The translations under genes and the position numbers were made by a program. Positions 2,224-48,980 of a DNA stretch of 64,000 bases are shown in pieces. The DNA lies in the NCBI RefSeq assembly GCF_023028105.1, contig NZ_CP095491.1, forward strand, positions 2,728,001 to 2,792,000, read 5' to 3'. The stretch is from Halosolutus gelatinilyticus (GTDB lineage: Archaea > Halobacteriota > Halobacteria > Halobacteriales > Natrialbaceae). The notes beneath the pieces are model-generated. The model was not told where the DNA came from. It saw only the letters and a program-made list of their open reading frames with translations, and did no database searches. Numbering within the stretch: the first letter of the stretch is position 1; the number at the start of each line of letters is the position of its first letter.

Positions 2224-3012
2224 ATGTGCTACATTGTCAGGACGCCGAAACGAAGGGCGGGAACAGCGTCCGGAACACTCCGCTCGTGGGCCGTCGACGA
2301 GGGGGATTCGGTCGAACGGGGCGAGACGATCGCACGGGTCGAATTCGAATCGAGCGCCGACGAAGCCGAACCGAGCGGAACCGCGGTCGAAGCCCGCGAT
2401 CGCGGCGTCCTCCGACGGATGTATTTCGACGCCGGCGCGGCGGCACCGCCGGGAACGCCGATCGGGATCGTCGGGCCGGCGGACGCGGACGTCGCCGAAC
2501 TGGAAGCCGAAGCGGCGGCCGAACTGGCCGAAATCGTCGCGGAGGCGACGGCGATCCCCGAAACCGGAGCCGAAGCCGGCGAGTCGACGACCGACGCCGT
2601 CGACACGGAGATGCCCGCCCGGACGCTCACCGCGCACAATCCCGAGGGGGTGGCGGGGACGATCGAGGCCGGTTCGTTCCGGTGGCGGTTCGACGAACCC
2701 GAGGCGGCCGGCGGCTCGGAGCTGGGACCGACGCCCGTCGACGTCTTCCTCGGCGGGTTCGCCGCCTGTCTGTCCCTGAGCGTGCGCTTCCAGGCGAACA
2801 AACGCGAGGCGTCGGTCGGGGCGATCGACGTGACGGCCGACGCCGAGCCCGAACGCGGCTCCGTCGATCGACTCGCGGTGACGGTCGAACTCGAGACCGA
2901 CGCCGACGCCGAGACGGTCGAACGCATCGTCGACCTCGGCGAGCGGGGCTGTCACGTCTCGCAGTTGCTCCGGGAGGATCTGCCGCTCGAAGTGAACTGG
3001 GAACGGACCTGA
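2224..3012 (+). CDS. Lipoyl/biotinyl-like domain fused to OsmC-family domain
   Basis: The 262-aa protein has an N-terminal biotinyl/lipoyl-fold segment (residues about 10-85: SWAVDEGDSVERGETIARV ... GVLRRMYFDAG ... GTPIGIVGP), an Ala/Glu-rich linker (about 90-130) and a C-terminal OsmC/Ohr-type domain (about 135-262: GPTPVDVFLGGFAACLSLSV with Cys182, then RGCHV with Cys243). OsmC proteins are thiol peroxidases that use two such cysteines and, in the studied cases, are reduced by dihydrolipoyl proteins. Here the lipoyl-like domain has no lysine at the hairpin where one would be modified; the only lysines are near residue 9 and in the OsmC domain. It may therefore be a docking or structural domain. 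The ATG at 2224 is the first in frame. Monocistronic as far as can be seen. Confidence 0.85.
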   Translation: MCYIVRTPKRRAGTASGTLRSWAVDEGDSVERGETIARVEFESSADEAEPSGTAVEARDRGVLRRMYFDAGAAAPPGTPIGIVGPADADVAELEAEAAAELAEIVAEATAIPETGAEAGESTTDAVDTEMPARTLTAHNPEGVAGTIEAGSFRWRFDEPEAAGGSELGPTPVDVFLGGFAACLSLSVRFQANKREASVGAIDVTADAEPERGSVDRLAVTVELETDADAETVERIVDLGERGCHVSQLLREDLPLEVNWERT

Positions 3013-3064
3013 GCGTTCTGGAGCGACGGATTCGATCGCGCGCCGAGCCGGTCGAACCCGCCGG

Positions 3065-3859
3065 TCACACCCCCGCAACGGCGGCCGGTTCGGTCGCGAC
3101 GAGGCTGCGGTAGTACGCGACCAGGTACGTGTACGTGAGGCCGGAGGCGATCGTTCCGAGAACCAGCGTCAACCCGACCGACAGCGCGAACCTCGATCCG
3201 GAGGTGACGACGATAGCTCCCGCCTCCGTGGTCTCGGTGGCCGTCAGGTAAAGCGCCATCCCCGGCCCCTGACCGATCGCGGAAATCGCGAGGGAGACGA
3301 GCGAAAAGCCGACGGCGCTGACGAAGTTTCGGCGCACGAGCGCCGCGCTCCGGCTCAGCGAATCGATCGCCCCGACCCCGCTGACGACGATCGCCGCGTC
3401 GTAAAACTGCAGAAACAAGACGACGAGGCCGACCAGGAGGCCGACGAGGCCGAACACGACGATCACCGCGGCGCCGACGCTCCCGCTCGCCGCCACCGTT
3501 CCGACCCCGACGACCGCCGCCGCAATGACGCCGGCGAACGACACGCTGATCACGATCACCGCGAACACGATCGTCGCGGCCAGCAGCGAGACGTAGCTCG
3601 CTTTGCCGCCGCGAACGAACGCGCCGAGATCCGTCGAGCCCGCGAGCGCTTCGTTCGCCATCGTGAGCAAGCCGCCCAGAGGGAACGGAAACACGAAGAT
3701 CCATGGAAGCCACAGTACCGCCGCGATCACGGAACTGACGTACGCGTTGACGACGACGGAGACTTCACCCAACCCGACCAGGAACAGGGCCCCCACCAGG
3801 ATGACGGGATTCGATCGAAACGCGGCCCACGCGGTCGACAAGTCACGTATCGCGCTCAT
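3065..3859 (-). CDS. Multi-pass membrane protein, uncharacterised haloarchaeal family
   Basis: The 264-aa product starting MSAIRDLSTAWAAF has about six or seven long hydrophobic stretches (for example ILVGALFLVGLGEVSVVV near residue 20, and repeated Val/Ala/Gly-rich segments to the C-terminus) and no catalytic motif I recognise. It resembles the haloarchaeal membrane family whose genes are annotated only by DUF numbers, sometimes linked to the glycerophosphodiester phosphodiesterase membrane domain; I cannot confirm that here. An in-frame start 30 codons upstream exists, but the internal ATG at 3859 begins the typical amphipathic N-terminus. The gene converges with the OsmC fusion gene and ends 53 bases from it. 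Confidence 0.75.
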   Translation of the reverse strand: MSAIRDLSTAWAAFRSNPVILVGALFLVGLGEVSVVVNAYVSSVIAAVLWLPWIFVFPFPLGGLLTMANEALAGSTDLGAFVRGGKASYVSLLAATIVFAVIVISVSFAGVIAAAVVGVGTVAASGSVGAAVIVVFGLVGLLVGLVVLFLQFYDAAIVVSGVGAIDSLSRSAALVRRNFVSAVGFSLVSLAISAIGQGPGMALYLTATETTEAGAIVVTSGSRFALSVGLTLVLGTIASGLTYTYLVAYYRSLVATEPAAVAGV

Positions 3860-20669: not shown

Positions 20670-21000
20670 TACTGTGCCTCGAGGCGGCTAGATCTTCCGT
20701 TGAAAGCGTATTCAAAGAGTTCACTGCTGTATCCGTATCTATTGAAACCACTACGAAAGCCCCTGACGTGATCGACCATCCGGGCCTCGCTGCGCGCTTC
20801 CTTCACTTCGTTCAGTCCAGTGCTTACGTCGGCCATCTTCCCGGAGCCAGCAGGGGCTTTCGTAGTGTTGTCCGCGGACGCGGAATACGTTACGCGCCTA
20901 TCAAAACCGATCGCACTACATTGTCCCGATAATCGATCGCGTCGTGCGAACGAGTGTCAAAAGCGGAGGGCTTTTCGCGTCGCCGACAAACCGACTACCT
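20670..21000. other. Intergenic region holding a short inverted-repeat element and the surE promoter region
   Basis: No coding frame of merit is present. The stretch holds the inverted-repeat element at 20749-20867 (separate entry) and, from about 20885, AT-richer sequence before surE. The 17-base arms of the element are the only strong symmetry. Confidence 0.5.
20749..20867. repeat. MITE-like element with 17-bp perfect terminal inverted repeats (copy 1)
   Basis: The ends are CACTACGAAAGCCCCTG (20749-20765) and its exact complement CAGGGGCTTTCGTAGTG (20851-20867). Between them are 85 bases with no open frame. Read on the minus strand, 20845-20820 matches 23 of 26 positions of a core in copy 2 at 48655-48680 (TCCGGGAAGA ... 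CGTAAGCAC), and the ends resemble those of copy 2. Two related copies with conserved ends and core make this a repeat family, possibly moved by a transposase elsewhere in the genome. No target-site duplication is evident. Confidence 0.75.
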
Positions 21001-46861: not shown

Positions 46862-48463
46862 ATGAAACAGGAGATGCGTACCACCGACTTCCTGGACCGG
46901 GCGGTCGACCTGTACGGGGACGTTACCGGCGTCGTCGCGCACGACGGCACCGAATACACCTACGACGAGGTGAACGATCGGGTCAATCGGCTGGCTCACG
47001 CGCTCGTCGACAGCGGGGTCGAACAGGGCGATCGCGTCGCGTTGCTCGCGCCGAATACGCACTACTTTATCGAGGCCCTGTACGCGACGAACAAACTCGG
47101 CGCCGTGTTCGTTCCGCTTAACTACCGGCTGGCCACGGGCGAGTACGAGTACATCTTGAACGACTGCGAGGCGGGAACGCTGATCGCGGACTACGACTAC
47201 GCCGAGAAGGTCGAACCGATCCGCGACGAGATCCCGGCGGAGACGTTCGTCGGGTACCGGGCGGACGAGATAGCCGGCGACGACTGGCGCGACTACGAGG
47301 CGTTCATCGACGGTCGGTCCGCAGCGGAACCCGACCGGCCCGATATCAGCGAGGACGACGACGCCAGCATCAACTATACTTCCGGGACGACGGGCGATCC
47401 CAAGGGTGTCGTCAGAACCCACCGCACCGAACACTGGCACGCGCTGGTGCTCAACCAGCACATGGAGATCAGGGACGACGACACCTACCTCTGGACGCTG
47501 CCGATGTTCCACTGCAACGGCTGGGGCCACACCTACGCGATCACGGGCACCGGCGGCACGCACGTCTGTCAGCGGACCTTCGACGCCCAAGGTGTGTTTG
47601 ATCGCGTGCGCGAGGACGACGTCACGTTCATGTGCGGCGCGCCGACGGTGCTCAACAACCTCATCGCGTACGCCGAGGAACACGCCGACGTCGAGACGAC
47701 CGGCGATCGCGACGTCCGCATCGCCACGGCCGGGAGCGCGCCCGCGACGGCCACGATCGAGACCGTCGAGGACGAGTTCGGCTGGCGGATCATCCACATC
47801 TACGGCCTCACCGAGACCGCGCCGATCATCACGACGAGCAACTCGCCGCGCCGCCTCGCCCAGCGCGGGCGCGAACTCAAGGTGAAACAGGGCTTCGGGA
47901 CGCTCTGCACCGACGTCCGGGTCGTCGACGAGGACGGCGAGGACGTCCCCCGCGACGGCGCGACGATCGGCGAGATCGTCGTCCGCGGGAATCAGGTGAT
48001 GGACCGGTACCTGAACAAGCCCGACGCCACTGAGGAGGCTTTCAACGATCGCGTCGAGGGCTACTTTCACACCGGCGACCTCGCGACGATCGACGAGGAC
48101 GGCATGATCGCCATCCAGGATCGCAAGAAGGACATCATCATCTCCGGCGGGGAGAACATCTCGAGCATCGAGGTCGAGGATATCCTCTACGACCACCCGG
48201 ACGTCCTCAAAGCCGCCGTCATCCCCGTCCCGAGCGAGCAGTGGGGCGAGACGCCGAAGGCGCTGGTCGTCCCGAAGGACGACGCCGATCTCGACGAGGA
48301 GGGCGTCGTGAGCTTCGTCGGCGAGCACCTGGCGAGCTACAAGAAGCCGACCAGCGTCGACTTCGTCGACGACCTCCCCGAGACGGCCACCGGCAAGGTC
48401 CAGAAGTACGAACTTCGCGAGGAATACTGGGACGACGAGGCGCGCAAAGTCGGTCAGCAATAG
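46862..48463 (+). CDS. AMP-forming acyl-CoA synthetase (fatty acid-CoA ligase)
   Basis: The 533-aa enzyme carries the adenylate-forming marks: NYTSGTTGDPKGVVRTH (P-loop-like A3), IYGLTETAP (A5), GYFHTGDLATIDEDG (A7), DRKKDIIISGGENISSIEVE (A8) and the final TATGKVQKYELR with catalytic Lys (A10). The sequence is closest in style to medium/long-chain fatty acyl-CoA ligases (AlkK type). It activates a carboxylic acid to acyl-AMP and then acyl-CoA. It is divergent from the ABC operon. Confidence 0.92.
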   Translation: MKQEMRTTDFLDRAVDLYGDVTGVVAHDGTEYTYDEVNDRVNRLAHALVDSGVEQGDRVALLAPNTHYFIEALYATNKLGAVFVPLNYRLATGEYEYILNDCEAGTLIADYDYAEKVEPIRDEIPAETFVGYRADEIAGDDWRDYEAFIDGRSAAEPDRPDISEDDDASINYTSGTTGDPKGVVRTHRTEHWHALVLNQHMEIRDDDTYLWTLPMFHCNGWGHTYAITGTGGTHVCQRTFDAQGVFDRVREDDVTFMCGAPTVLNNLIAYAEEHADVETTGDRDVRIATAGSAPATATIETVEDEFGWRIIHIYGLTETAPIITTSNSPRRLAQRGRELKVKQGFGTLCTDVRVVDEDGEDVPRDGATIGEIVVRGNQVMDRYLNKPDATEEAFNDRVEGYFHTGDLATIDEDGMIAIQDRKKDIIISGGENISSIEVEDILYDHPDVLKAAVIPVPSEQWGETPKALVVPKDDADLDEEGVVSFVGEHLASYKKPTSVDFVDDLPETATGKVQKYELREEYWDDEARKVGQQ

Positions 48464-48569
48464 GACGCTCGGGCGGACTTTTCGATCGGCCTTTTGATGG
48501 GGACCGGCGATCGCGATCGAGTAGAGGTGCGATCAGATACTGCCGTAGACCCTCGATAACTGCTGAAAG

Positions 48570-48857
48570 CACTACGAAAGCCCTCGATTCCCTTTCCACC
48601 CGTATCGGCTGATTGGACTGCCACCGCGGGCGGGACTGAAAGGGGCTGGCGGTATCCGGGAAGACGGGCGCCGTAAGCACCGACCGAAGTGAGGTCGTTC
48701 GAAAGACGCTCCGCGTCTTTCGTGATCTTCAAAAGAGCGCAATGCGCTCTTTTGGACCTCGCCGAGCTTCGCTCGGTTCAGTGACGAGAGACCGCAGGTC
48801 TCTCGAACCACGCGCAGCAAGCCCCTCGACTGGATACCGCCAGGGGCTTTCGTGGTA
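48570..48857. repeat. Structured repeat element with hairpin array (copy 2)
   Basis: Ends: ACTACGAAAGCCC (48571-48583) and, complemented, ACCACGAAAGCCC at the right end (48844-48856), 12 of 13 matching. An inner inverted repeat CTGGCGGTATCC (48646-48657) / GGATACCGCCAG (48832-48843) is perfect. Inside it are five hairpins in a row: 48681-48696 (CGACC/GGTCG), 48700-48722 (10-bp arms, CGAAAGACGC, loop TCC), 48730-48754 (11-bp arms, CAAAAGAGCGC, loop AAT), 48762-48776 (CCGAGC, loop TTC) and 48785-48805 (9-bp arms, CGAGAGACC, loop GCA). The core 48655-48680 matches copy 1 (23 of 26). No open frame. It could be a mobile element whose ends and interior form a multi-branched fold in DNA or RNA. Confidence 0.75.
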
Positions 48858-48980
48858 TTCTCAACTGCGTCAGCGCTGTGAGATCACGACCTGACCGATA
48901 CCGATCGATCGCGTGGCGCAACCCTTTAGTCGGTGCTCGCGATACACCCGATGGGAACCGCACGGCCGCAAATCTGACTC

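Follow-up and report, generated by a model that had tools for sequence, protein, structure and literature searches.

Hairpin element between an acyl-CoA ligase gene and rpS15

The window analysed here is a stretch of 64,000 nucleotides of Halosolutus gelatinilyticus (contig NZ_CP095491.1, positions 2,728,001 to 2,792,000). Between a gene at 46862-48463, which from its sequence we take to encode an acyl-CoA ligase, and rpS15 lies a hairpin-rich element, and between the element and rpS15 lies the S15-Halobacteria leader (RF03143; 48951-49016, 85.4 bits). The S15 leader is separate from the element and is present in 121 of the 125 genomes of the host family. When the ligase-S15 spacer was compared in 40 of these 121 genomes, a copy of the element was found in 8 of the 40 other genomes and was absent from most. 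Comparison with 31 copies in the own genome, together with the fold, moved the limits of the element from 48570-48857, as given in the first-pass annotation, to 48568-48859. The features in the window are as follows.

48568-48859, no strand assigned: whole element, arm A missing (ends by comparison with the 31 own-genome copies; fold)
48568-48583, plus strand: terminal helix H1, 5' strand, AGCACTACGAAAGCCC
48844-48859, plus strand: terminal helix H1, 3' strand, GGGCTTTCGTGGTATT
48590-48645, plus strand: arm B hairpin, CCCTTTC...GAAAGGGG (alignment A1 and model R1)
48646-48843, plus strand: arm C, with the 12-bp repeat as closing stem (48646-48657 with 48832-48843)
48669-48680, plus strand: constant strand of arm C, family form CGACGYAAGCAC (alignment A2)
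48812-48821, plus strand: constant strand of arm C, family form GCGCAGCGAG (alignment A2)
48695-48811, plus strand: hairpin module DH1, inserted in arm C and split by DH2
48700-48722 and 48785-48805, plus strand: DH1 hairpins
48727-48781, plus strand: hairpin module DH2, nested in DH1
48730-48754 and 48762-48776, plus strand: DH2 hairpins
20747-20869, no strand assigned: second family copy in the window, H1 with one hybrid arm and no arm B

The row of perfect three-base-loop hairpins described in the first-pass annotation was recovered at 48700-48722 (10 bp, loop TCC), 48730-48754 (11 bp, loop AAT), 48762-48776 (6 bp, loop TTC) and 48785-48805 (9 bp, loop GCA). The 12-bp inverted repeat CTGGCGGTATCC/GGATACCGCCAG with a spacing of 174 bases was likewise present as described, and the terminal repeats noted there were found as outer repeats of 20 nt at 80%. 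Triloop hairpins with a stem of at least 7 bp number 3 within 288 bp versus 16 across the 64 kb, and none of 5000 first-order Markov sequences held more than one of them. Compared with shuffles, the RNA fold of the element had a z score of -8.3, and the DNA folds of its two strands had z scores of -8.5 and -8.3. The statement that the element contains no open frame is literally incorrect, as two mechanical ORFs, one of 82 aa and one of 92 aa, run across it on the minus strand; these ORFs do not look coding, however, because the element family varies freely in length and in its stems. The window copy is a family member in which arm A is absent and arm C is enlarged, and the hairpin array is made of two smaller hairpin modules nested within arm C. 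Its arm B is the family copy G000:C1:2776584-2776645. In the second copy at 20747-20869, the single arm resembles a hybrid of two arms, and the closing stems are unmatched.

Dispersed copies in the genome and in the class

BLAST of the element against the host chromosome (4.76 Mb, 4 contigs) returned 91 matches, all on contig C1, which correspond to about 40 places. Pairing of the ends gave 36 candidates, from which 5 spurious pairs were dropped, leaving 31 copies with both ends and an inverted terminal repeat consensus of CGATTGAGAACACCACGAAAGCCCC. The end motif occurs at least 39 times in forward and at least 42 times in reverse orientation, and its reversed control had no match among those listed. 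The own-genome copies are intergenic, stand beside unrelated neighbours and have no fixed gene relation: by rough counts from a simple ORF caller, the genes around the 31 copies are tandem in 13, divergent in 12 and convergent in 6, and those around other gaps in the same stretches are tandem in 45, divergent in 23 and convergent in 22.

The arm-B model, with 43 candidates scored per genome, found relatives in 46 of the 125 genomes of the host family, and a half-element model, with 12 candidates scored per genome, had matches in 214 of the 292 genomes and 61 of the 78 genera of the class; both figures count genomes, not copies. A scan with a 22-base pattern of one genome per species (84,980 species) returned 77 stretches, all but one haloarchaeal by title, with named copies in Natronococcus pandeyae LS1_42 and Haloterrigena salina JCM 13891; the exception, a Lachnospiraceae match, was rejected as a lone chance match. 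Partial matches were found in 11 haloarchaeal plasmid records, none reaching 80% coverage, and there was no match to the element in phages. No Rfam family fits the element. The family was not met in the literature searched, which had subscription journals mostly outside its reach, and family sequences sought in published text gave two matches, both due to chance.

Modular anatomy of the element

Among 106 distinct copies bounded by both ends, lengths range from 78 to 443 bases and cluster at about 95, 175, 265, 320 and 440, in steps of roughly one arm. In a full copy the order is H1, arm A, arm B, arm C, H1', and the junction leaves no base unpaired (CCC/CTG..CAG/CCCC..GGGG/CTG..CAG/GGG). Arm A usually has the sequence type of arm C in reverse complement, and the A-B-C class accounts for 42 of the 106 copies. 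In arm C, the constant strands CGACGYAAGCAC and GCGCAGCGAG flank a variable apical hairpin. H1 changes between genera together with its partner strand: the pairs are CACG/CGTG in the host family, CAAG/CTTG in G323, CATG/CATG in G162 and CTCG/CGAG in G304. In other families of the class (L380-L384, L388-L390), single half-elements follow a conserved stretch ..GAGGGACGA..GAGTCGGCTGGGGAGG.., and a second, one-sided form of the element therefore exists.

Modules like DH1 and DH2 also stand free of the element in the own genome and in G001 and G002. DH1 is uninterrupted in L144 and, outside the element, in L090, L048, L034 and L040; hairpins related to DH2 lie outside it in L041, L038 and L042. The nest of DH2 within DH1 recurs in two further own-genome copies, L067 (96% to the window copy across 180 bases) and L068 (86%); the closing arm stem of L067 differs in sequence from that of the window copy, yet is self-complementary. 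The DH1 pattern has 24 sites; we claim no copy number for it, because hairpins on both sides were present in just 3 of the 15 loci examined. In L090 (G000:C1:3213501, at about 2985-3065), a tRNA gene on one side and a duplicated tRNA 3' end on the other enclose a DH1 double hairpin, which possibly marks an integration site. In L040 (G002:C1:1407979), a reading frame for a TnpB zinc ribbon is closely followed by another DH1 double hairpin.

Compensatory change in the stems

The stems were compared in an alignment of arm B (A1; 23 of the 31 best-oriented arms used) and in an alignment of the half-element (A2; 30 of 45 used, from 68 non-redundant among 100 found). In the 30 half-elements, 94.9% of cells were paired, and changes on both sides occurred in 12 of 17 pairs. 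The covariation score was 0.550, versus 0.140 for shuffled alignments and at most 0.070 for slid partners. Variation among copies without compensatory change, which would have spoken against a structured element, was thus not what we observed. Furthermore, 114 arms less than 85% alike contained 95 distinct 7-base stems.

In 33 two-armed copies, 418 of 462 cells were paired within arms and 181 of 462 between arms A and C. Because within-arm pairing exceeds A-C pairing, single arms, not one long foldback, were kept as the structure. On the other hand, when one symmetric copy was folded as DNA, the structure predicted to be lowest in energy was an A:C foldback and not the junction. In palindrome correction, one strand of a stem is copied from the other, and this would also yield compensation. 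Compensation alone is therefore no proof of selection.

Inversion between orthologous copies

From 124 copies, 48 orthologous pairs were identified by both flanks, and 8 were dropped (same locus or wrong ends). The 40 pairs kept fall into 11 groups, two of which are uninformative, and arm B is oppositely oriented in 6 of the 9 informative groups. The inverted segment differs among pairs. Between G095 and G096, which have matching flanks, the whole 265-bp element is inverted; between G102 and G105, the inversion at the S15 locus is confined to the 64-bp arm B; and between G073 and G070, 168 bp are inverted and one arm is missing.

Strand bias and loop type

G.T and A.C oppositions in the stems were counted on each strand. 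On the strand running outward from arm B, G.T exceeded A.C by 34 to 12 over eleven positions, and by 27 to 11 when only the seven variable positions were counted. Counted on the consensus fold, the outward strand had 53 G.T versus 30 A.C, with the other strand as its mirror image; the same count for the S15 leader was 19 to 1. Strand bias was absent in arm B (41 to 39) and in H1 (170 to 175). The RNase P control gave 25 to 13 in sense and 29 to 13 in antisense, so that the S15 leader is the sole usable control; an earlier S15 control, before it was redone on alignments, had shown no bias (16 to 17). A strand test by folding without G.U (108 to 112) was discarded because the RNase P control was likewise unbiased (22 to 33). 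Thus, one strand of the element is modestly favoured, much less so than in a known RNA.

Of 67 perfect hairpins in the element, 44 have 3-base loops, compared with 148 of 763 in the flanks. Among these triloops, GNA/TNC loops make up 25 of 44 in the element versus 12 of 148 in the flanks, and in 24 of these 25 the closing pair on the GNA strand is C-G. In short arms, the outward strand has GNA in 36 cases and TNC in 2. GNA loops on G-C stems are described, in the part of the source available to us, as extraordinarily stable DNA mini-hairpins (PMC4686876). Since the triloops of the element are of the DNA-stable type and its strand bias is far below that of the RNA, a folded DNA strand is favoured as the form in which the element acts.

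Ends and mobility

No target duplication was found in the 31 own-genome copies, where the highest z score over 392 offsets and lengths was 2.9. The element ends span 25 bases. IS6-type ends were seen only in G304, where near-identical copies lie within IS6-type ends of about 48 bp. In this genome, duplications of 8-9 bp flank 4 of 7 sites (L376, L378, L379 and L400), and an ORF fragment of the DDE_Tnp_IS240 type lies behind one IS6-type end. From the IS6 ends and the duplications, we conclude that the element can travel as IS6-type MITE cargo in G304. In most genomes seen, the conserved core occurs without IS6-type ends. A TnpB/omegaRNA origin was rejected, as the single TnpB match of the own genome has no half-element nearby.

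Discussion

The copies described here are dispersed and intergenic; they have inverted terminal repeats and compensated stems, and their arms are modules set about a junction. Between orthologues they undergo inversion and arm exchange, and in one genome they have transposed as cargo of IS6-type ends. The first-pass view that the element is neither a terminator nor a simple MITE agrees with the dispersed copies and the compensated arms. On balance, we lean towards the view that it belongs to a family of small mobile repeats that is old in the haloarchaea, is non-coding and non-autonomous, and acts via folded single-stranded DNA. The working form would be a folded single DNA strand, exposed either at a replication fork or in the course of mobilisation, with every arm forming a hairpin whose cap is often a GNA triloop. 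On such hairpins, a polymerase or nuclease could copy one strand of a stem from its partner, arms could be swapped or segments flipped between their inverted repeats, and a recombinase or transposase acting in trans could move the whole element. The foldback predicted as the lowest-energy DNA fold counts against the junction form of this reading. Also against it are the lack of target duplications in the own-genome copies, the lack of a clean empty site, the outward G.T excess, which would be expected of an RNA as well, and the copies that keep their position across genera. We also entertain, more tentatively, a class-wide self-inverting junction element in which the selected form is the folded DNA, the arms are exchanged, corrected and flipped as hairpin modules, and the movers are changeable (own ends mostly, IS6-type ends in G304).

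The first-pass annotation had named an RNA, a structured transposon end set and a recombination substrate as candidates. The orthologue inversions, together with IS6-type mobilisation in another genome, favour the latter two; an RNA is less probable, the modest outward G.T excess being a point in its favour. As an RNA, the half-element (from the 3' strand of B via the arm to the terminal GGGGCTTTC) would be transcribed outward and selected, and the symmetric element would be two such units back to back. The class-wide occurrence of the half-element, its lone directional forms outside the host family, the covariation, the constant purine-rich internal loop and both outward-strand counts fit this explanation. 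We nevertheless regard it as unlikely, as the strand bias is far under that of the S15 leader, the arms and arm B flip among orthologues, the loops are of the DNA-stable type, the relation to genes is not fixed and Rfam holds no matching family. The flips themselves, and the nested inverted repeats, would suit an inverton in which a recombinase turns arm B or the whole element, for example to alter expression of a neighbour. However, some 40 copies stand by unrelated genes in every arrangement, the arms change in sequence and not in orientation alone, and an unsystematic look met no linked recombinase gene, which makes an inverton quite improbable.

We give equally little chance to an ordinary MITE of an IS6-type element. 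This description holds for G304, with its ends, duplications and IS240-type DDE fragment, but the own-genome copies end in CGATTGAGAACACCACGAAAGCCCC without duplication, the core occurs without IS6-type ends in most genomes seen, and compensated arms are unexplained by an ordinary MITE. That the element serves the ligase gene or rpS15 as a regulatory leader or a terminator is scarcely credible: it does lie between the two genes with the RF03143 leader following, and 8 of 40 other genomes have a copy in the same spacer, but the S15 leader is separate and nearly ubiquitous in the family, the spacer lacks the element in most of the genomes compared, and the dispersed copies beside unrelated genes refute this explanation.

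In its relation to known systems, the element resembles IS6-type MITEs in the G304 copies only, and its core is common across genera regardless of the ends. Bacterial REP/BIME repeats and REPINs are intergenic, palindromic, mosaic and of alternating orientation. The element shares these properties and differs in its much longer arms around a junction, its free but compensated stems and its terminal repeats. The nearest named class, compared by description only, is that of the small mobile repeats (SMRs) of Haloquadratum. According to the portion of the report available to us, SMR-A and SMR-B of Haloquadratum walsbyi have terminal repeats unrelated to transposons, no duplication and no transposase, occur in tens of copies of about 80-110 bp and have an enigmatic mover, and SMR-A targets palindromes of IS605-type elements (PMC3119063). 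Like the SMRs as described there, the element has inverted terminal repeats and tens of copies, is too short for a transposase and shows no target duplication in the own-genome copies (G304 differs). Unlike the SMRs, which that account defines by sequence families, it measures 78-443 bases, has modular compensated arms, is intergenic and is class-wide. PATEs, which have IS605-type ends, are without inverted terminal repeats in the same portion of the report (PMC3119063); on that description the element resembles them in its palindromes near the ends and in the absence of target duplication, and differs in its inverted terminal repeats and in the TnpB locus being without a half-element.

The family is a structured repeat in most of the sampled haloarchaeal genomes that is matched by no Rfam family. 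Its free yet paired stems and the orthologue flips offer a natural test of hairpin-DNA copying, correction and inversion in archaea, and its ends, arms and copies provide a concrete handle on the movement of small mobile repeats that lack a transposase.

Some copies hold an identical position across genera, and this positional conservation could reflect a function. Copies at the S15 locus occur in G022, G023, G024, G025, G097, G102 and G105, and G118 carries a compact variant. A clean empty site was not found at this locus, where the spacers of the congeners G001 and G002 hold no element and are too divergent; G026 and G027 hold remnants. In the ligase-S15 spacer of G001 (L136), the place that the element has in the own genome is taken by five near-identical tandem units, each about 27 bases long.
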